Below are positions 28,087 through 45,890 of a DNA stretch of 47,759 nt, one piece after another. Positions within the stretch are counted from its first letter, which is position 1. The number at the start of each line of letters is the position of its first letter. The notes beneath the pieces are model-generated. The model had not been told where the DNA came from, ran no database searches, and was given only the letters and a program-made list of their open reading frames with translations. The DNA is from a virus: the IMG/VR virus record IMGVR_UViG_3300045453_000100, positions 1 through 47,759 of that record; one strand, given 5' to 3'. The position numbers and the translations under genes were made by a program.

Positions 28087-29343
28087 CTACGCTGCGCGAC
28101 GCCGGCTTTCCTCGGCGAACGTTCTGCCGGTCGCCAGGAGCGTCGCCTCCCGGCCGGTGAAGGTCTGCCAACGGCGGACGATCAGGTCGCAGTACTCCTC
28201 GCTCAGCTCCATGGCGAAGGCGCGCCGCCCGACCGTTTCCGCGGCGATGATGGTCGAGCCCGAGCCGCCGAAAGGTTCGTAGATCGCATCGCCGCGCGCC
28301 GAATTGTTGAGCATCGGACGGCGCATGCACTCGACCGGCTTCTGCGTACCGTGGACCGTCGCCAGGTTCTCGAGGCCGCTCGCGTCGATTTCCCACACGG
28401 TCGACTGGTCGCGGGCGCCTTGCCAGTGCCCAGTGCCGCCTTTCCGCACGACGTAGAGCGCCGGTTCATGCTGCCAGTGATAGTGGCCGCGGCCGATCGC
28501 GAAGTTCGGCTTCACCCAGGCGATGACGGCGCGGGTTTCGAAGTTGCAGGCGCGAAGGCTGCCCTCGACCTCGAACGCCTTGGTCGCCGCGTGCCAGACG
28601 TAGGCCGCTTCGCCTGGGAAGAGTGCCCAAGCCTCACGCCAGTCGGCACGGTCGTCGTTCAGGACTTCGCCGACGCGCGCCGAATCGGTGCCGCGGTTCA
28701 GCGACTCGTTCCTGAACGACGGGTCGTACTCGACGCCATAGGGCGGGTCGGTGACCATCAGGTGCGGTCGCGCGCCAGCGAGCAGGCGTTTCACGTCCGC
28801 AGCGCTCGTCGAGTCGCCGCAGTGCAGGCGATGGGCACCGAGAACCCAAAGGTCACCCGGCCGCGTTACCAGCGGCGGCGTTACGACCTGGTCGCGATCT
28901 TCGTTGGCCGCCGGATCGGGAAGGCCGAAGGCGAGCAGCTTGTCGATCTCGGCCGCATTGAAGCCGATCGCGTGGACATCCTCCGGCGCCAGCTCAAGAT
29001 CCAGGTCGCGGTAGATCGAGGCCAGAATCGCATCGTCCCACTCGGCGTCCTCGGCCAGGCGGTTGTCGGCGATGCGATACGCCTCGATCTGGCGCGGCGA
29101 GAGATGCTCGGCGATGACGACGGGCACCTCGGACCGGCCGAGCTGCTGCGCCGCGCGCCACCTCGCCTCGCCGGCGACGATCTCGCCGGCGGCGCTGATG
29201 ACGATCGGCGCGTTGAAGCCGAAGCGGTCGATCGATTGTGCCAGGCGTTCGAGCTGCCGCCTTGGATGCAGCCGCGCGGTGCGTTTGGGCGCCTCGAGAT
29301 CGGCGATCGGCCGGACCTCGAAGCGCACGGTCTCGTTTGGCAT
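28087..29343 (-). CDS. ParB-domain/DNA methyltransferase fusion
   Basis: 418 aa. Residues 1-110 form a ParB-like domain with GEIVAGEARWRAA (53-65). Residues 165-400 form a beta-class DNA methylase with catalytic DPPY (199-202) before the SAM motif EPFGGSGSTI (about 355-364). This architecture is common on phages and mobile elements. It probably methylates adenine or cytosine N4 to protect phage DNA; the target is unknown. The gene lies immediately upstream of the terminase small subunit gene. Confidence 0.92.
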   Translation of the reverse strand: MPNETVRFEVRPIADLEAPKRTARLHPRRQLERLAQSIDRFGFNAPIVISAAGEIVAGEARWRAAQQLGRSEVPVVIAEHLSPRQIEAYRIADNRLAEDAEWDDAILASIYRDLDLELAPEDVHAIGFNAAEIDKLLAFGLPDPAANEDRDQVVTPPLVTRPGDLWVLGAHRLHCGDSTSAADVKRLLAGARPHLMVTDPPYGVEYDPSFRNESLNRGTDSARVGEVLNDDRADWREAWALFPGEAAYVWHAATKAFEVEGSLRACNFETRAVIAWVKPNFAIGRGHYHWQHEPALYVVRKGGTGHWQGARDQSTVWEIDASGLENLATVHGTQKPVECMRRPMLNNSARGDAIYEPFGGSGSTIIAAETVGRRAFAMELSEEYCDLIVRRWQTFTGREATLLATGRTFAEESRRRAA

Positions 29344-30338: not shown

Positions 30339-30992
30339 CTAGACTTTTTTTGAAGCCTTGCTCAGCCACACCTCGCGCGTGTCGGCATCGATGGCGACGC
30401 GAGCAGCATTCCATTCCTCGCTCATAATCGTCGTGTTGTGCCGATAGAGCCGGTGAACGCCGCTCTTGCTGATGCCACGTCCACCGCGCTGAGCCGCAAT
30501 ACCGAACGTGATCTTCGAGATCATGCGCACCGACTTCCCCGACATGACGCCCATCAGCACGGCTCGGTCGATCTCCGACCAACAGAACAGCCGGTCCCAC
30601 GTCCAGTTGAGCCGGGCATCCTCTTCCGGCGACAGCGGCCTGCGCAGCGGACCGGCTTCCTGCGGCTGTAGGTTGCCGAGAAACGACCGATAGAGCGCCG
30701 GGACGCGCGGCGGCGGAAGTCGGACGAAGAGCGCATGCACGCTCACCAGCCGGCAATGCACCAGGTCCCACGTCCAGTCGGTCGGCATCGGGCCGAGCCC
30801 GGTGACTTCCTCGGGCAGCGCCGCATCGAGCGGCATGTCCGCCTTCCGCAGGAACACCGCGCGGCGCTCGCTGACCAGCACCGCACGGGAGCCATCGTCC
30901 GACCGAGGCCGCCACGGACGTCCCACCGGCTCGATTTCGGTTTGTCCCACCTCGTCCCGGCTCTGTCCCAGCGTTTGTCCCGCACTACTCAT
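30339..30992 (-). CDS. Hypothetical phage protein with HTH-like C-terminus (217 aa)
   Basis: Start taken at ATG 30992 (AGGAA about 6 nt upstream); the frame runs on to 31169 but that part is repeat-derived. Two WTWD motifs occur (DWTWDLVHC and NWTWDRLFCW), each followed by a hydrophobic helix. Near residues 150-195 lie GVMSGKSVRMISKI and a GISKSGVHRLYR helix, like an HTH. The N-terminal residues GQTLGQ and DEVGQ are encoded by the left boxes of the origin-like array. Possibly DUF6362-like; I am not certain. Last gene of the early operon. Confidence 0.7.
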   Translation of the reverse strand: MSSAGQTLGQSRDEVGQTEIEPVGRPWRPRSDDGSRAVLVSERRAVFLRKADMPLDAALPEEVTGLGPMPTDWTWDLVHCRLVSVHALFVRLPPPRVPALYRSFLGNLQPQEAGPLRRPLSPEEDARLNWTWDRLFCWSEIDRAVLMGVMSGKSVRMISKITFGIAAQRGGRGISKSGVHRLYRHNTTIMSEEWNAARVAIDADTREVWLSKASKKV

Positions 30993-31186
30993 TTGATTTC
31001 CTTCACTCTTCTTGGAAATGGGACAGTGGGACAAAGAAAAGAGGTCCTTCTCACGTGCGCGCGTGCGCGCGCACGCCTCGCCCCTCGCTTCTTTGTCCCG
31101 TTGTCCCGCTTTGCCTTCGGATGTCGATGCCATCGGCACTTTCAGGCGGGACATCGGGTGGGACTCCACCGGGACTCAGCCGGGAC
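30944..31186. repeat. Symmetric GGGAC/GTCCC box array, candidate replication origin
   Basis: Twelve boxes: GTCCC at 30944, 30954, 30965, 30977; GGGAC at 31020, 31028; GTCCC at 31095, 31103; GGGAC at 31148, 31160, 31171, 31182. The outer quartets have steps of 10-12 bp, one helical turn. The pattern mirrors around about 31064, where 31052-31076 is 25 bp of alternating purine-pyrimidine. An exact 11-bp inverted pair (31028-31038 and 31089-31099) lies inside. It starts right after the helicase stop, as an iteron origin would. Confidence 0.75.
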
Positions 31187-31187
31187 A

Positions 31188-33068
31188 TCACGATGTCTCC
31201 TCGTCCTGGCTGGGCAGGAAGACCGGCGGGATCTGCAGGTAGCGCGACTGCATGCCGGCGAATCGCAGGCGAGACTGCTCGCCGTCGCTCGGCACGGCAC
31301 GCCACTCCACGCCGCCGACGGCGCGGCGAAGCTGCTTCAGGATCGTGGCGCGCTTCTTCCCCTGGTAGCGCGGGTATCGGGCGAGCAGCTCGTCGAGCCC
31401 CGGATGCTTGTTGGCGATGAGCAGCCAGGCCTCGTTCCAGCCTTCGTCCTTGCGCCGCTCAAGGCGCATGCCGTAGCGAGGCAGCTTCTCCCGCGCGACC
31501 GTGCCGTTCGGCTCGCGGCCGTCGGCGATCATCTGACCGATCGTCGGCCGGCTGCCTCCTTCCCAGGCATTGGGGGCCAGGCCGAAGATGATGTTGAGCA
31601 GCTCGTTCGGCTCGTCCTCGCCATCCTCGGCTTCCTGCAGCGACACGATGTAGGGCCGGAACCGGGTCAGTTCCTCGTGGTCCTCCGGATCGAGCGGATC
31701 GTCGCTCGTCATCGTCCGCCAGCCGGCGATCAGATGGCCTAGCTGGTCGGCGTCGCGCGGGATGCCGCCCATTCTCAGGATCGCCTCGCGCGCGACCCGC
31801 AGGTTCTGGCGGAAAAGCTGGGCGGTTGCGAGCGCCCGCGCCCGCAGCTTCGGCGACATCTCGGCCGCCGCCTTGAACATCGCCGTGATCGTCTCGGGGG
31901 GCACGGGGGGATGGTCCCTGCGGTCGCGGAACGATCGCAGCTCGAGCAGCGTGATGCGCGAGCGGTCCTGCGGCAGCCACTCCTCGGTCATCGTCGCTGC
32001 CATCAGCATGGCGCCGTGCACGTCGATTCGACGGCCTTTGCCCGAGGCCGTGCCGCGTCCGCCGGTGGCGCCGTCATCCGACAGCAGGCGCACGAACTCG
32101 ATGATCTTCCGGATGCGGTCGGGCTCGCTGTCGTTCTCCGTCTCGTCGACCGGGAAGCAGAGCGCCGTGCCAATGAAGTTCTGCTCGAAGTGCGCGCGCG
32201 TGTAGTTTCGCTGGATGTCGTGACTGGCGCCGCCCAGCAGCGTGCGCGCGTAGCGCAGCAGCAGCGTCTTGCCCGAGGAATACGGCGCCTCGACGAAGAT
32301 GTGCGGCAGCCAGGCGATCCAGGAACCCAGCATGTTGCAATGGAGCGCGCCGTGGAACAGGTCCTGCGACTCTGGCGTCGCCCACGCCCATTCGTCGAGA
32401 TGGCCAGCCACCACCCTGCCGAGCTCGGCCGGGCCCGGTTGCCAGGCGAAGCCGCCGCGGTCGTTCGTGTCGTGCGCCGGCGCCTCGCGTCGCGGCCCGA
32501 TGACGAATACGGCATCGTCGATCTTCACGCCGGGATCGTAGACCCGACCGGCATGGAAGATGCGGTCGCCAGCATGCACCACCGGCAGGCCGTCGGCGTC
32601 TCGCCAGGTGCCGATCGAGTGCGCTGGTCGCGATTCGTCGTAGTAGCCGCCGACCTCGAGACACCAGCGCATGAGACGCGAGGCGCAGACCTGCTGCTGG
32701 AGTCCGCCGGTAAGCAGCTTCTTCTCGTGGTTGTACTTGCGGAAGTGGCGCAGCGGCCACCACATCGAGCCGCCGAACAGGTCGGGCAGCCCGCCGCGGC
32801 CGTGGAGCTGGCCGGACGTGAAGCGCCGGATCTCGCCGAAGGCCGTGACGAAGACGTACTGCCCGTCGACGCCGCCCAGCGGGCGCACGGGACAGGGATC
32901 GCGGCGCCAGCCGTGCGGCAGGCGCACGTACCAGTCGCCCTCGGCCACGCTGTACCAGGTCGGCAGCTCCCAGCCGTCGGGCGGTCCGGGCTCGCCGTCG
33001 TCGCGAGGCGCCGGGTCCTCCGAGTCGACGGCGAAGTCGTCGATGTCTTCTTCTTCTTTGTTGGCCAT
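31188..33068 (-). CDS. Replicative helicase/DNA-dependent ATPase-like protein
   Basis: 626 aa. Walker A APYSSGKTLL (261-270) and Walker B LCFPVDETEN (about 303-312) lie in a helicase-like core. The acidic N-terminus precedes a 200-residue region of unknown fold, and a C-terminal region includes a probable HTH near residues 580-600 (RATILKQLRRAVGGVEW). A separate primase is encoded upstream, so this is the likely unwinding partner. It lies at the end of the replication operon and its stop abuts the box array. Exact helicase family unresolved. Confidence 0.75.
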   Translation of the reverse strand: MANKEEEDIDDFAVDSEDPAPRDDGEPGPPDGWELPTWYSVAEGDWYVRLPHGWRRDPCPVRPLGGVDGQYVFVTAFGEIRRFTSGQLHGRGGLPDLFGGSMWWPLRHFRKYNHEKKLLTGGLQQQVCASRLMRWCLEVGGYYDESRPAHSIGTWRDADGLPVVHAGDRIFHAGRVYDPGVKIDDAVFVIGPRREAPAHDTNDRGGFAWQPGPAELGRVVAGHLDEWAWATPESQDLFHGALHCNMLGSWIAWLPHIFVEAPYSSGKTLLLRYARTLLGGASHDIQRNYTRAHFEQNFIGTALCFPVDETENDSEPDRIRKIIEFVRLLSDDGATGGRGTASGKGRRIDVHGAMLMAATMTEEWLPQDRSRITLLELRSFRDRRDHPPVPPETITAMFKAAAEMSPKLRARALATAQLFRQNLRVAREAILRMGGIPRDADQLGHLIAGWRTMTSDDPLDPEDHEELTRFRPYIVSLQEAEDGEDEPNELLNIIFGLAPNAWEGGSRPTIGQMIADGREPNGTVAREKLPRYGMRLERRKDEGWNEAWLLIANKHPGLDELLARYPRYQGKKRATILKQLRRAVGGVEWRAVPSDGEQSRLRFAGMQSRYLQIPPVFLPSQDEETS

Positions 33069-33973: not shown

Positions 33974-34260
33974 CGCAGCTTTCCCCATTGCAGCAGCAGC
34001 GGATCGTTCAGAACTCTGGCGATCCACACGACCGTCCAGATCGCATAGCCAAGAGCGACGAGGACGAGCGCGGCCAGCACAGCCACGCCCGCCAGGGTCC
34101 ACCATCGCTGACGGGAGGCCCATGCCTTCCAGGGCGGGGCCGCAAGCTGGCCTCTGCGGACCGCGATCAGGTTGCGGCGTTGCTCGCCGTCAGGGAGGGC
34201 GGGCAGAGCGAAGTCGATCGCTTTCTCGAGATCGCGCACTCGCGCGGCGCTATTGATCAT
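33970..34260 (-). CDS. Single-pass membrane protein (96 aa)
   Basis: 96 aa from ATG 34260, overlapping the ParB-like stop by 4 bases. An N-terminal basic helical part (RVRDLEKAIDFALPALPDG) is followed by one long hydrophobic segment (TLAGVAVLAALVLVALGYAIW) near residues 56-78. Unknown function. It may be a superinfection-exclusion or membrane-anchored replication accessory protein; this is inference only. Confidence 0.75.
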   Translation of the reverse strand: MINSAARVRDLEKAIDFALPALPDGEQRRNLIAVRRGQLAAPPWKAWASRQRWWTLAGVAVLAALVLVALGYAIWTVVWIARVLNDPLLLQWGKLR

Positions 34261-35102
34261 GGCTGGTTCCTCCTCTCGATCGCGCGGTCGTAGCGCTTGC
34301 GCAGCAGCCGCTGCAGCGCCGCTTCGATCGTGCCGCCCTCGCGGGCCCGGTGAACGCGCGCCCGGCCGATCTCGTCGTCCAGGTCGAGATCCGCGAGCAT
34401 CGACACGAAGGTCGGGCGATGCAGCGCCCGTCCCATCTCGGCCACGATCCTGACCACGGCGGCGATGTTGGAGGCCTTGAAGGCGTCCTCGGCCTCGCCC
34501 TGCGCTTCGGCGAGGATGGAGAGGCCGGCCGAGATCGCCGGGTCGCCGAGCGGCAGCAGCTTCTCGAACGTGGTGGTCGCGTAGGTGGCCTTGGGCGGCA
34601 GCCGTTGCGCCGAGCGCACGATCGTCACGCCGGCCTTTGCGCAGAGCGCCGCGATCCGCCTGGCCGTCGGATCGCCGCCGGCTTCCGCCGCCCAGAACCG
34701 GTGCAGCCGGGTGATGCCGATGCGGCGCGCGTTCAGCGCGACGAAAGCCTTTGCCTGCATGCGGACGTCCGGCGCCTCGACCACGTAGCAGGGCAGCTCG
34801 TCGACCAGCGGATGCTTCTTCGCCGCCTCGAGGCGGTGCTGGCCGTCGATGACCAGATAGCCCCCCCCGGTGGCCGCCGGCGCGACGCAGATCGGCTGGT
34901 AGAACAGCCAGTTGAATTCGCGCACGATCCGGTTGATGTGCGCGCGGTTCTTGTCTCCCAGCTCGCGCTGGTAGCGGCGGTCGACCGCGAGCTTGTCGAC
35001 GGCGATCCACTTCAACTTGGGCGGCGGCCCTATGTCGGTCGAGGCCTTCTCGGCCCGGCGCTTGGCCGTCGCGGCGGCGCCATGGAGGGCAGGCGTCGTC
35101 AT
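34257..35102 (-). CDS. ParB-like nuclease-domain protein
   Basis: 281 aa. The N-terminal half has the ParB/sulfiredoxin pattern VDRRYQREL, PICVAPAATGGGYLVIDGQHR (DGQHR near residues 85-89) and a following NARR helix; the rest is helical. It overlaps the primase stop by 4 bases and the membrane gene by 4 bases. DUF6551-like ParB proteins of this type are common in phage replication modules. Function unknown; possibly DNA binding or an NTP-dependent nuclease. Confidence 0.85.
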   Translation of the reverse strand: MTTPALHGAAATAKRRAEKASTDIGPPPKLKWIAVDKLAVDRRYQRELGDKNRAHINRIVREFNWLFYQPICVAPAATGGGYLVIDGQHRLEAAKKHPLVDELPCYVVEAPDVRMQAKAFVALNARRIGITRLHRFWAAEAGGDPTARRIAALCAKAGVTIVRSAQRLPPKATYATTTFEKLLPLGDPAISAGLSILAEAQGEAEDAFKASNIAAVVRIVAEMGRALHRPTFVSMLADLDLDDEIGRARVHRAREGGTIEAALQRLLRKRYDRAIERRNQP

Positions 35103-36193
35103 GCCGGCACCCCCGAACGCCGTTCGGCCGCGGCCCTGAGCTGCACCAGGTCGTTGAAGTCGCCCTTTTCGGCCGCGAGGTTCGGGATCTTCACCGCGAC
35201 GGTGCGCCCGATGTTCCAGTCGGCGCGCCGGGCCTCATGCGCGAAGATCTCGCCCCAGCGCGTGCCGTTCTTGCCGCCCTTGTCGGCGGCGTAGATGAAA
35301 TCCCGGCAGGCGAAGGGCGGCTCGACCGTCTTCATGCGGCCGGAGTTCACGAAGGCGATGCCCGAGCGCTTCCAGAGCTGCATCGCCGACAGCGACGATT
35401 CGATCCCCTCGCCGCCCACCATCTCGTCCGCGTCGGGCCCGAGGCGGATGAAGCCCGGCTCGTAGGAACCGACCACCAGCTTCGCCTTCTTCACCGGCGC
35501 CTTGGTCCAGGCGCCGCCTTCGCCACGCGCCAGGAAGGTCTGGTGGACCGTCAGCAGCGTGCCGTCGTGTGCGCGGATTGCCGCGATCATCGCCGGAAAC
35601 TCGCGGCGCTCCTGGTAGTGCCAGCAGCGCTCGAGATAGCGGAGGTCGGGCGGCCAGCCAGCGTTGAGCGTCGCGTCCCCGATGCCGTACTCCGCCGGCG
35701 GCACGATCGCGCGCTGCCGCAGATAGCGATCGACCGTGCCGCCGGCGACAAGGGCGGTCGACCGGCGCATGAGCTCATGGCTGCGGTTCAGCCGGTCGCG
35801 GTCGCCGACCTGTGCAACTGCGGGCTTGCGCGCCGCCGGCGAGGGCTTGAGGTGGTCGATACCGTTCTGGCTTTCCAGCAGCTCGACCGCGTCCTTGAAC
35901 TCGAGGCCCTGCTGGCGCATCACGAACGAGATCACGTCGCCCTTGGCCTGGCAGCCGTAGCAGACGAAGAAGCCGACCTTCACCTTCTGGCCGCCGTGCG
36001 GATAGACCGTGAACGACGGCGAGTTTTCGGCGTGGAAGGGACAGAGCCCGACCAGCGACCGGCCGCCCGACTTGCCCTTCAGTGCCACCACCCGGCCGAT
36101 CACATCGTCGATCGCCACGCGCTCGACGACGTTGCGCTTGCGCTTCTCCCAGGTCTCGTCGTCCCAGGACCGTGACATCGCGTCGGTCCTCAT
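35099..36193 (-). CDS. DNA primase, CHC2 zinc finger and TOPRIM-like
   Basis: 364 aa; start ATG at 36193 overlaps the preceding stop as ATGA. Zinc ligands C51, H54, C78, C81 (CPFH and CYGC) form the CHC2 finger. The TOPRIM-like part carries EGIESSLSAMQ and a FIYAADKGGKNG with acidic residues. It lacks a helicase domain, consistent with the separate helicase gene. It primes phage replication. The C-terminal ERRS tail arises from a palindrome copy. Confidence 0.93.
   Translation of the reverse strand: MRTDAMSRSWDDETWEKRKRNVVERVAIDDVIGRVVALKGKSGGRSLVGLCPFHAENSPSFTVYPHGGQKVKVGFFVCYGCQAKGDVISFVMRQQGLEFKDAVELLESQNGIDHLKPSPAARKPAVAQVGDRDRLNRSHELMRRSTALVAGGTVDRYLRQRAIVPPAEYGIGDATLNAGWPPDLRYLERCWHYQERREFPAMIAAIRAHDGTLLTVHQTFLARGEGGAWTKAPVKKAKLVVGSYEPGFIRLGPDADEMVGGEGIESSLSAMQLWKRSGIAFVNSGRMKTVEPPFACRDFIYAADKGGKNGTRWGEIFAHEARRADWNIGRTVAVKIPNLAAEKGDFNDLVQLRAAAERRSGVPA
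35115..35125. repeat. Dispersed palindrome copy 14 (GAACGCCGTTC)
   Basis: Perfect copy at the extreme 3' end of the primase gene, read as ERRS. Confidence 0.95.
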
Positions 36194-41233: not shown

Positions 41234-41307
41234 TGCTGGAAGCCGTCGCCCTGATCGCCGCCGTGCTGTTCGTCCTGGGCGGCATTGCCGCCGCCGCGTC
41301 GAAGTGA
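41233..41307 (+). CDS. Tiny membrane peptide (24 aa)
   Basis: MLEAVALIAAVLFVLGGIAA with a short basic end, one membrane span. ATG overlaps the previous stop as TGATG and its stop overlaps the next GTG. Second of two such tiny membrane peptides in this operon. Function unknown. Confidence 0.5.
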   Translation: MLEAVALIAAVLFVLGGIAAAASK

Positions 41308-41594
41308 CGGCACGCCCTCCCCTCACCCTGGCCGGGACCGACGTCGCGCTGAGCGCGCGGCTGCCGGACGGCCGCGTCCTGGTCGTCTTCCTCGATCGCC
41401 AGGGCGAACCGACCGGCTACCGCCGGCCCTGCCGGGCGCACGAGCTGCGCGGCATCGGCTGGCACCTCGCCGAGATCAAGGCGCGCATCGCGCGCTTGCC
41501 GATGCACGGCGCCGACGCACCTACCCCGTCTCCGGAGGCCGCCACCCCGCGGCGCGGCTTCCTGCATGCCCACCACACCGCCGCGGAAGACTGA
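41304..41594 (+). CDS. Small hypothetical protein (96 aa)
   Basis: 96 aa from GTG 41304 (GTGA overlap). A beta-rich N-terminus (LTLAGTDVALSARLPDGRVLVVFLDRQGEP) is followed by a helix with WHLAEIKARIARLP and a Pro/His-rich C-terminus. No family recognised. It lies just upstream of the ParB gene. Confidence 0.65.
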   Translation: MTARPPLTLAGTDVALSARLPDGRVLVVFLDRQGEPTGYRRPCRAHELRGIGWHLAEIKARIARLPMHGADAPTPSPEAATPRRGFLHAHHTAAED

Positions 41595-41611
41595 CAGGGG
41601 ATCTCATCATC

Positions 41612-43408
41612 ATGGTCAACAAGTTCCAGTCGCCGCTGCAGAAGGCGGTCGTGTCGTGGCTAGCCGCCCATCCCGAGACGACCATCGCCGGGCTCGCTCA
41701 GCTCGCCGGCATCGACAAGGGAGATCTCAGCAAGATCACCCGCGGGCTCAAGGGCTCGCTGAACATGGAGCCGGCCGGGCGCCTCGCAAAGGCGATGGGC
41801 ACCACGGTCGAGGGGCTCCTCAGCGGTGAGCCCGAGGCGGCCGCCGCGGCACCGGCTGGCGCCCCGCCGAACGCCGTTCGCGTCGAGACGACGGAGGTCG
41901 CCAGCGGCACCCGCGTCATCGCGCTGAAGGACATCGAGCCGTCGGCCGACAACCCGCGCAAGACCTTCGACGAAGAGTCGCTGAAGGAGCTGGCCGCGTC
42001 GATCGCCGAGCAGGGCCTGCTGCAGCCGATCGTCGTGCGGCCGGTCGGCAAGCGCTTCGAGATCATCGCCGGCGAGCGGCGCTTTCGGGCGCTGAAGCTC
42101 AACAAGACGGCCGAGGCCCTCTGCGTCGTCCGCGAGGGCGACGACGACGGGACAACGAAGGCCTTGCGCATCATCGAGAACCTGCAGCGCGAGGATATCT
42201 CGCCAGCCGAAGAGGCCGATGCGCTGCTCGCCTTGCACGAGGTCGACCCGAAGAAGTGGAACGCGACGGCGATCGGGCGAGCGATCGGCCGATCCGACCG
42301 TTTCGTCGGACAGCGACTCGACATCGCCCGTAACCTCGCACCGGGCTGGCGCAAGAGGCTGGTCGAGGGGACGTTGAAGATCGAGCTGGCGCGCGCGCTC
42401 GCGGCTTGGCCGCAGAAGCTGCAGACCAAGGTACACGTCTACGACCACACGACCGCCGCCCACATCCAGCGGGAGCTTGAGAACCACGTCATTCCGGCCG
42501 GTCACGCGGCGTTCGATCACAAGCTCTACACCGGCGAGATCGTCAGCGACGGCAAGCGCAAGTTCTTCGCCGACGCAGAATCGTTCGACAAGTTGCAGGC
42601 GGTTGCGGCCGAGGCCAAGGCAGACAAGCTTGCCGAGGAGTGGCCGGGCGCGGCCGTCGTTAAGTCGCTGAACGGCTGGGTCTGGGCCGACAACGGCGAG
42701 CCGATCCGGCAGTGGGCTGACAAGCGCGAGGCCAAATCCCGACGCAAGGGCCTGGCGAAGGACGACGTCACGGCGCTGGTCACGATCGAGAACCGCAAGG
42801 TCGTCGTCTACAAGGGCGTGCTGAAGGCCGCGCTGTACGCGAAGAAGGCGGAGAAGACCAAGGCCGAGCGAACGGAAGAGCGCGAGAGGCAGGACGAGAA
42901 GCAGGCGCACAAGAACAGCCAGCGGGCGGTCCAGGCCTTTCGTGAAGACCTCCAGGCGCGGATGGCCGGCCATCCCGGTCTTGTCAAACGGCTGATCGTC
43001 TACGCGACGATGGGCAATCTCGGTGACCTGGTCTTCGAGGACGACCCCGGCGAGTTCATGGGCCCGTGGAAGGAGCAGCTCGCCGGTATCGTCGAGTTCG
43101 ATGGCGAGCGCTGGGACTTCTACGACGCCCCCGACACGGGCGAGGACAGACTGTGGACCTGGTTGTGCGCTCAGCCCGACGACCAGATCGAACTCATGCT
43201 GGCCCGCCTCGTCGGGCTCGAGCTGGGTGTGAACCACTGGACGCGGCCGAACGCCGTTCGGGCCGCCGTCTACGCCTCGATAGGCGCAACCCTGCCCGCC
43301 GATCTCGCCAAGTCGATCGAGGACGAGAACGAGGACGACGAAGACCTCGAGGATCTCGTCGACGAGTCGGACGAGCAGGAGCCAGCCGCCCAAGAGGCCG
43401 CGGCATGA
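41612..43408 (+). CDS. HTH-ParB-type DNA-binding protein (598 aa)
   Basis: ATG 41612 preceded by AGGGG. Residues 1-75 carry an XRE-like HTH (LAQLAGIDKGDLSKITRGLKG). Residues 100-270 hold a ParB box (ADNPRKTF, AGERRFRALKLN, ENLQREDISP) and a KorB-like HTH (RAIGRSDRFVGQRLDIARNL). The rest is a lysine-rich and acidic region unlike plasmid ParB. It is twice the usual ParB length. A linker at 85-90 carries PNAVR. Candidate centromere-binding or chromatin-organising protein under CI control; no ParA is visible. Confidence 0.88.
   Translation: MVNKFQSPLQKAVVSWLAAHPETTIAGLAQLAGIDKGDLSKITRGLKGSLNMEPAGRLAKAMGTTVEGLLSGEPEAAAAAPAGAPPNAVRVETTEVASGTRVIALKDIEPSADNPRKTFDEESLKELAASIAEQGLLQPIVVRPVGKRFEIIAGERRFRALKLNKTAEALCVVREGDDDGTTKALRIIENLQREDISPAEEADALLALHEVDPKKWNATAIGRAIGRSDRFVGQRLDIARNLAPGWRKRLVEGTLKIELARALAAWPQKLQTKVHVYDHTTAAHIQRELENHVIPAGHAAFDHKLYTGEIVSDGKRKFFADAESFDKLQAVAAEAKADKLAEEWPGAAVVKSLNGWVWADNGEPIRQWADKREAKSRRKGLAKDDVTALVTIENRKVVVYKGVLKAALYAKKAEKTKAERTEERERQDEKQAHKNSQRAVQAFREDLQARMAGHPGLVKRLIVYATMGNLGDLVFEDDPGEFMGPWKEQLAGIVEFDGERWDFYDAPDTGEDRLWTWLCAQPDDQIELMLARLVGLELGVNHWTRPNAVRAAVYASIGATLPADLAKSIEDENEDDEDLEDLVDESDEQEPAAQEAAA
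41869..41879. repeat. Dispersed palindrome copy 17 (GAACGCCGTTC)
   Basis: Perfect copy in the linker between HTH and ParB domain, read as PNAVR. Confidence 0.95.
43249..43259. repeat. Dispersed palindrome copy 18 (GAACGCCGTTC)
   Basis: Perfect copy near the 3' end of the ParB gene, read as PNAVR. Confidence 0.95.
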
Positions 43409-44406: not shown

Positions 44407-44775
44407 TGCCGCCCCCCCCTTCTGATCTCGGGCGACACGGTCGACCCTCAGAACGTAACGGCCGACATCCTTCCCCATCGACGCGAGGAGCTGCTCTTCG
44501 CGCTGCGCCGGCGCGACGACGCCGAGACTCGCCACCAGCTCGCCCGATGGGCAGAGATCGACATCATTGTCGACGGCGAAGCCCTTGAGATGGACGACTT
44601 CGTCTACCGGGAGCCGCTCTGGGACGACCTCACGCGCTGGCTGCACGGCGAGATCGGCATCCACGTCGCCGAGGGCCGGCACGAGTACGCCATCTGCCTG
44701 CTCGAGCGCTACGCCTTCCCGCCCGCCATCCTGACCAAGCTGCAGTCGCAAATGCGCGACAAGGAGAACGCATGA
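44406..44775 (+). CDS. Acidic protein with a poly-C frameshift near its start
   Basis: ATG 44406 (overlapping the previous stop) is followed almost at once by a run of eight C (44412-44419). The zero frame after it is Arg/Pro noise. Removing one C joins the good frame, starting LLISGDTVDPQNV and running through HRREELLFALRRRDDAETRH to MRDKENA at 44775, about 122 aa. Without slippage the only ATG in that frame is 44590 (61 aa). This is either a homopolymer sequencing error, a phase-variable gene or transcriptional slippage. Its stop overlaps the clamp start by 4 bases. Confidence 0.6.
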
Positions 44776-45890
44776 AATTCGTCGTCGAACGGGCAGCGAT
44801 CCTCAAGCCGCTGCAGCGCGCCGCGCGCATTGCGGTCCGGGGCAACCAGAACACCATCCCGATGCTGAGCCATGTCCAGATCGAGGCCCGCAAGAACGGC
44901 AAGGCGGTGCTGATTGCCACCGACATGGACCGCCAGGTCGAGGTCGCGGTGCCGACCGTCGAGCTCGCCAAGGCCGGCGCCACCACCGCCAACGCGCGGA
45001 CCCTGGCCGAGTTCGTCTCCAACGCGCCCGAGGGAACGCAGATCGAATTCGAGCTGCCGAAGGTCGACGGCCGGCTCACCCTGCGTGCCGGCCGCGGGCG
45101 GGCCGCCTTCGCCGTGCTGCCCGCGGAGGACTTCCCGAAGTTCAACGACCAGGGCAGCGGCACGTTGACGGTTGTCGTCGACGGCGCCGCCTTGCACGCA
45201 GCCCTGGGCGCCGTTGCCCATGCCCAGTCGAACGAGGAGACCCGCTACTACCTCAACGGCACGTACCTTCATGCGGCCGGCGGCGAGCTGGTCTGCGTGG
45301 CGACGGACGGGCATCGCCTGGCGCGCGCGACCCTCCCGGTCGCCGACCTTCCCGAGGGCCTGCCGGGCATCATCATCCCGAGCGCATCGACGGCCGAGAT
45401 CATGGCCCTTGCCGCGAAGACCGACACGCTCGAGCTGGCGATCAACGATCACGCGCTCGCCACCTTCGCCGGCGACGTCGTGTTCCGGACCAAGCTGATC
45501 GACGGCACATTCCCGGACTACGAGCGGGTCTGCCCCCCGAAGGACGTGGCGACGGGCTTCGAGGTCGACCGCAACGCCTTCCTGCTGGCGACCAAGCGCT
45601 GCGTCGCGATCGTGTCGGACAAGATGCGGGCGCTGAAGCTGACGCCGAACGACCGCTCGATCGAGTTGCTGGGCAAGGACGCCGATCGCGGCGAGATCAG
45701 CGACGAGATCGACGCCCAGACCTCGACCAAGATGCCGGTCGGCGTCAACGCCAAGTACCTCGCCGGAGCCCTCGATGCGCTGCAGGGTACCACGGTCTGC
45801 CTGCGCTACGCTGATCCCGGTGCGCCGATCGCGCTGACCGATCCGGCCGACGCCAGCCGGCTGCAGATCGTCATGCCGGTGCGGGTCTAG
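44772..45890 (+). CDS. dnaN: Phage-encoded DNA polymerase III beta sliding clamp
   Basis: 372 aa, the normal length of DnaN. The start MKFVVERAAILKPLQRAARI and the motifs ATDMDRQVEV, LRAGRGRAAF, NGTYLHAAG with VATDGHRLARA and the C-terminal QIVMPVRV (clamp last-strand motif) are clear. It should ring-load onto DNA and recruit polymerase, possibly the host's Pol III. It starts in the previous gene's stop region and belongs to the CI-controlled operon. Duplicate of a host gene. Confidence 0.96.
   Translation: MKFVVERAAILKPLQRAARIAVRGNQNTIPMLSHVQIEARKNGKAVLIATDMDRQVEVAVPTVELAKAGATTANARTLAEFVSNAPEGTQIEFELPKVDGRLTLRAGRGRAAFAVLPAEDFPKFNDQGSGTLTVVVDGAALHAALGAVAHAQSNEETRYYLNGTYLHAAGGELVCVATDGHRLARATLPVADLPEGLPGIIIPSASTAEIMALAAKTDTLELAINDHALATFAGDVVFRTKLIDGTFPDYERVCPPKDVATGFEVDRNAFLLATKRCVAIVSDKMRALKLTPNDRSIELLGKDADRGEISDEIDAQTSTKMPVGVNAKYLAGALDALQGTTVCLRYADPGAPIALTDPADASRLQIVMPVRV

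Follow-up and report, generated by a model that had tools for sequence, protein, structure and literature searches.

A mirror-symmetric box array directly behind a temperate-phage helicase gene: a candidate iteron-type replication origin

The Rep protein of the SaPI elements acts at an iteron origin located directly downstream of the rep gene; the C-terminal domain of Rep recognizes this origin, apparently with two hexamers present there (PMC7581432). Cch2 binds in vitro to iterons downstream of its operon, and the primer starts of its partner primase map to the iteron (PMC7581432). SaPI origins have an AT-rich region flanked by iterons. In iteron plasmids of the RepA/pi type, helically phased short direct repeats adjoin the initiator gene, the product of which is a winged-helix protein and loads host DnaB. 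SV40 and papilloma origins combine short boxes in inverted orientation with a helicase that serves as initiator and recognizes its own origin (see also PMC7581432).

The locus described here resembles the SaPI (SaPIbov1) rep-ori in the fold of its initiator-helicase candidate and in the placement of short iterons immediately behind the helicase gene. It differs in its four-arm mirror arrangement with two spacings, its alternating core, an outer arm within the next gene and boxes of the form N3AC, as well as in a DnaG-type rather than an AEP primase and a helicase C-terminal domain without a PDB match. C-terminal specificity, described for SaPI Rep, would rest in the phage on a residue–box association (five tree-independent pairs, p = 0.125). 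SCCmec Cch is the top structural match of the helicase and Cch2 likewise has iterons downstream of its operon, whereas its origin consists of three AAGTG iterons without a mirror array and with different neighbours. By analogy, the phage replicator would work like the SaPI/Cch type, with an initiator helicase, an iteron origin downstream and a primase nearby; replication itself is inferred. The phased repeats adjoining the initiator gene are shared with the RepA/pi plasmids, unlike which the box reader is probably the helicase itself. In SV40 and papilloma the DNA-binding domain is N-terminal and the boxes are far fewer, and no homology is claimed. The architecture was not found described in the open-access literature searched: neither the four-arm mirror with its two spacings, nor the alternating core, nor the rapid turnover of a short box sequence appears in those papers.

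The array and its surroundings

The window analysed is a whole virus record of 47 759 nucleotides, which represents a temperate myophage encoding sheath, baseplate and portal proteins, a GpA terminase, an S24 repressor and a tyrosine integrase. The gene order on the minus strand is CHC2/Toprim primase, 626-residue helicase, array and 217-residue open reading frame (Table 1), the array being placed between the helicase stop codon (31188–31190) and the beginning of the following gene, with its left four outer boxes within roughly the first 16 codons of the latter. Three further genes of the window were recorded. A complete DNA polymerase III β subunit (sliding clamp) with all three domains is encoded at 44772–45890 (plus strand), which is unusual for a 48 kb temperate phage. 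One protein near the contig end (1462–3162, minus strand) combines an N6/N4 DNA methylase domain with an Mrr-type nuclease domain and may be restriction-modification cargo. At 28087–29343 (minus strand), adjoining the GpA terminase gene, a ParB N-terminal domain is fused to a DNA methylase.

Table 1. Positions of the array elements and adjacent genes in the window
Feature	Positions	Strand	Remarks
Extra (13th) GTCCC	30920..30924		No mirror partner
Outer array, next-gene side	30944..30981		GTCCC at 30944, 30954, 30965, 30977; within N-terminal codons of the 217-residue ORF
AT-richer stretch separating the inner from the outer boxes, next-gene side	30982..31019		Candidate unwinding element
Inner pair, next-gene side	31020..31032		GGGAC at 31020, 31028; spacing 8 bp
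Core	31052..31076		25 bp alternating purine–pyrimidine, near-palindrome GTGCGCGCG TG CGCGCGCAC
Inner pair, helicase side	31095..31107		GTCCC at 31095, 31103; spacing 8 bp
Outer array, helicase side	31148..31186		Four GGGAC on +, at 31148, 31160, 31171, 31182; 11–12 bp apart
217-residue protein, function unknown	30339..30992	−	ATG at 30992
Initiator-helicase candidate, 626 residues	31188..33068	−	PHROG 21086/35358
CHC2 zinc-finger/Toprim primase	35099..36193	−	

The 12 GGGAC/GTCCC boxes are mirror-symmetric about 31064.5, and all 12 pair to within 2 bp (distances from the centre, outermost pair first, 118.5/119.5, 108.5/108.5, 97.5/97.5, 85.5/85.5, 42.5/40.5 and 34.5/32.5). The outer boxes are spaced by 10/11/12 and 12/11/11 bp and the inner pairs by 8 bp on both sides. 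When 12 boxes were placed at random with random orientation, none of 20 000 trials mirrored all 12, the maximum being ten. The inner inverted repeat GGGACAAAGAA/TTCTTTGTCCC (31028–31038/31089–31099) is exact, and a self-complementarity scan around the array also peaked at 31064.5 (60 of 125 positions). GGGAC was the top 5-mer in the 510 bp past the helicase stop, a count reached in none of 60 dinucleotide shuffles. No other box-rich site was present in the window, with at most three boxes per 270 bp stretch outside the neighbourhood of the array. GC skew showed no turn at the array and was uninformative for this window.

The preliminary description, made from the sequence alone, had claimed a 12-box mirror array with these positions and spacings, an exact inner inverted repeat, an alternating core of 25 bp and an extension into the next gene, all of which held; its term 'duplicated inverted iteron array' is apt. 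The claim that the array begins at the helicase stop was nearly correct, one base separating the stop from the last box. The box inventory gained one member, the unmirrored GTCCC at 30920, which probably lies outside the element. Involvement of the 217-residue protein, the binding of which it had named for assay, was unsupported: its N-terminus simply follows box-encoded residues. The N-terminal tail of this protein is encoded by the outer boxes and conservation starts only past the tail (ERAVLVSERRAVF). The same mirroring of local box coding by the N-terminus of the next-gene product was seen in the window and in three related loci (L129, L130 and L132), and in the closest relatives of the window the next gene consists of a variable box-encoded tail followed by the conserved stretch (ERAVLVSERRAVF, in various forms). 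The N-terminal sequence of the next protein is set by the outer boxes, and the constraint there is therefore on the DNA. The AT-richer stretch also contains the ribosome-binding site and the start of this reading frame.

Arrays in relatives of the helicase

A pattern scan of viral contigs restricted to the inner boxes (24 fixed bases) matched 18 contigs. Three of these (L003, L014 and L015) encode homologues of the window helicase, and in nine the helicase is of the unrelated AAA_25 (RepA-like) type; the array adjoins the helicase gene in both sets. A single-protein scan of viral contigs returned no relative; relatives were found by the pattern and alignment scans. An alignment scan with the window helicase gave 80 loci. 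Absence of the array from relatives sharing the helicase would have counted against the origin proposal. This was not observed: the same kind of array, detected by unsupervised 5-mer counting, was significant at no more than 500 bp from the helicase gene in 54 of 81 loci. Three further scans with other family members as queries contributed 92 more testable helicases, each independent in having <90% identity to any earlier one; significant arrays were found at 39 of these loci, 36 of which were usable.

The conserved layout, directly 3′ of the helicase gene, has an outer spacing of 10–12 bp, an inner spacing of 8–9 bp and a core of ∼58 bp. Spacings between same-direction neighbours in the 81-locus set were 8–9 bp in 165 cases and 10–12 bp in 141, all others being rare. 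Despite the same kind of layout, the spelling of the box differs in most relatives (GGTAC in L129, the helicase of which is 49% identical, TACAC in L130, GGAAC in L133 and GGCAC in L134), and nearly all boxes fit N-N-N-A-C. On a tree of the 81 helicases built without the C-terminal domain, the N3 part underwent at least 48 changes among 25 forms; the box can differ between helicases that are ∼70% identical, and whole-helicase similarity hardly predicts it. Some of the boxes were assigned by eye, and in a few cases the register was ambiguous (L258, L283 and GTNAC boxes). A primase homologue near the helicase gene on the same strand was the constant neighbour, present in 76 of the 81 loci.

About half of the homologous loci have no array within 500 bp of the helicase gene. 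Some of them have box clusters 0.45–1.5 kb further on, and others may use a different origin. The array was also absent beside the distant helicase relatives in Serratia MQ-4, Acinetobacter Acjo_20 and Bordetella PY223. The mirror is the commonest form and not the sole one, arm orientation being different in one subclade (L139, L141, L142, L143, L146, L152 and L162), where the inner boxes are reversed and the outer arms repeat each other directly instead of in inverted orientation. Two cultured phages carry the array: Bdellovibrio phage φ1422 has a perfectly symmetric 12-box GTAAC array after its primase-helicase gene (spacings 9, 10, 15, 63, 8, 90, 8, 63, 15, 10 and 9) and Synechococcus phage MinM1 has a 12-box CTCACA array.

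Core length, measured in the 76 arrays whose centre was clear, was 38–94 bp (median 57.5). The longest alternating purine–pyrimidine run in the core averaged 15.8, compared with 6.2 in shuffles; runs were significant at 0.05 in 53 of the 76 cores and reached at least 12 in 50, the run in the window being 25. The alternating tract is mostly missing in the subclade with the other arm orientation. Mean AT content peaked at 0.60–0.64 on the next-gene side, 60–80 bp from the centre (76 loci), and was about 0.3–0.37 outside. Cores are often GC-rich and alternating, and the AT peak lies to one side, between the inner and outer boxes.

Box arrays were also found after the helicase gene in 43 of 77 loci of the AAA_25 family (several boxes; loci not deduplicated). 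They likewise have variable boxes at 8–12 bp spacing, often ending in AC, and differ in belonging to an unrelated RecA-fold helicase and in not forming a four-arm mirror; phased arrays of this kind occur in L002, L005, L006, L008, L009, L011, L012, L016 and L408–L487. GGGACA arrays of similar phasing adjoin other genes (primase-like, terminase-like or unidentified) in L017, L018, L019, L007, L013 and L004, in phages of apparently other hosts. A pattern scan of genome contigs returned mostly REP-like palindromes of Firmicutes, leaving a few true mirror arrays (L079, L098, L112 and L121) in alphaproteobacterial records. The Firmicutes elements, which make up most of L021–L128 (for example L024, L029 and L036), are GGGACA palindromes of REP-type appearance, several to many per chromosome (Syntrophomonadaceae, Aquibacillus, Virgibacillus and others); they have a different form ('>8>14<..>14<8<') and were set aside as a separate element. 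A REP/RAYT-like identity was rejected for the window, which has a single 12-box array that is tied to the helicase.

Helicase fold and the reading of the boxes

An AF2 model of the helicase (mean pLDDT 89) was searched against the PDB with Foldseek. The first matches were SCCmec Cch (5dgk, E = 4 × 10−7) and SaPIbov1 Rep (8tch, E = 8 × 10−6), followed by NrS-1, AsfvPrimPol and D5/E5 helicases; the matches are at the level of fold only (TM about 0.3–0.5, identity 10–11%). The C-terminal domain alone was predicted with high confidence (pLDDT 92.5) and gave no PDB match at E ≤ 0.001, because of which its role in DNA binding is only inferred.

Among the columns of the family alignment, that of Arg602 (codon 31263–31265) was the one most strongly associated with box position 1 (z = 5.7): Arg or Lys occurs with G or T, and a non-basic residue with A or C (discovery set, p = 1.9 × 10−5). 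The rule was stated beforehand for fresh loci, of which 29 agreed and seven disagreed (p = 0.0028). Only five tree-independent pairs were available, about four of them concordant, and this comparison is underpowered; the association is partly phylogenetic. Exceptions include several GGA boxes paired with Asn, Ser, Thr or Gln. Other helicase columns were moderately associated with the box (z = 4–5), and neither the primase, the terminases nor the Cro-like family showed a stronger link to the boxes than the helicase. The helicase probably reads the boxes; in the absence of binding data this is not proven.

Interpretation as a replication origin

The array, its symmetry and its conserved position beside this helicase family are established here, as are the change of the box under a conserved layout, the composition of the core and the fold relation to SaPI Rep and Cch. 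The earlier suggestion of a candidate replication origin is supported by these data, with origin activity and protein binding remaining inferences. The array most probably represents an iteron-type origin of phage replication that would be recognized by the adjacent helicase, and is best read as a four-arm, variable-box form of the SaPI-like initiator-helicase/iteron origin. In the putative mechanism, the C-terminal domain of the helicase (residues ∼478–626) would bind the GGGAC boxes, and because the two halves are inverted, two helicase rings would come to lie face to face across the core; opening of the duplex may be helped by the Z-prone alternating tract and by the AT-rich segment beside it, after which the CHC2/Toprim primase would prime and host or phage replication proteins would extend. 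Binding, double-ring loading, opening at the core or AT segment and origin function are all inferred.

Among other explanations, a packaging site (pac/cos), in which the terminase small subunit would bind the phased boxes, draws support from about 50 of the 81 loci, where genes assigned by sequence resemblance as terminase small-subunit-like and large-subunit lie downstream at distances of ∼0.7 and ∼1.6 kb, and phased repeats can occur in packaging sites. The array, however, tracks the helicase gene and lies directly behind it. Similarity between boxes showed no correlation with that between terminase sequences (Mantel r = 0.07, p = 0.20; r = −0.03, p = 0.63) and a weak one with that between helicases (r = 0.10, p = 0.03). 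The GpA terminase of the window belongs to a different family and is encoded about 3.5 kb from the array; packaging is thus very improbable. An operator array, through which a repressor or the next-gene product would control transcription and in which fast box change would reflect immunity specificity, would fit the position across the start of the next gene and a box diversification resembling that of the operators of superinfecting phages. We regard it as highly unlikely, since no regulator family is a constant neighbour in the way that the helicase and primase are, the layout is unusual for an operator (240 bp, four arms, an alternating core and boxes reaching into coding sequence) and a Cro/CI-like family showed no association with the boxes (n = 12).

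There is still less to recommend a parS-like partition centromere bound by a ParB-like phage protein. ParB-domain proteins are encoded in the window at 28087–29343, 34257–35102 and 41285–43408, but none of the ParB-like families is conspicuous as a constant neighbour beside the arrays, and an arrangement centred on the helicase stop, with a link to the primase, is ill-suited to a centromere. A telomere-resolution site, a CG-alternating palindrome with inverted arms cut by a protelomerase, is all but ruled out. Known telRL sites have an alternating centre, which the central palindrome GTGCGCGCG/CGCGCGCAC recalls; against this, no protelomerase domain was found among the window proteins scanned (not every open reading frame was scanned), the phage has a tyrosine integrase and an S24 repressor, and the palindromic core is missing in many relatives.

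Returning to the iteron-type origin, a bolder reading is possible but, taken as a whole, not likely. The arrays may constitute a widespread class of phage replicator with a rewritable short code, in which a C-terminal helicase domain of unrecognized fold would read the three variable bases preceding a constant AC. Each phage lineage would then have a private origin, with replication incompatibility between co-resident prophages as a consequence, and the Z-DNA-prone core would take part in opening. The constant AC is common to two unrelated helicases and suggests a shared reader of that part, for which a DnaG-type primase is a candidate; the AC/GT may serve this primase, making the box both initiator and priming site. 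T7-like primases begin primers with AC on a GT template.

As a sequence signature, the array would allow origins to be located in many uncultured temperate phages, something that can seldom be done by other means. The natural pairings of helicases with about 25 different boxes form a data set on origin reading by a self-loading initiator, and they allow the question to be asked of whether origin type governs mutual exclusion among prophages that share a cell. Because the alternating core recurs, a role of Z-prone DNA in origin opening can be put to a concrete test in a natural system, and the two cultured phages bring direct tests within reach.
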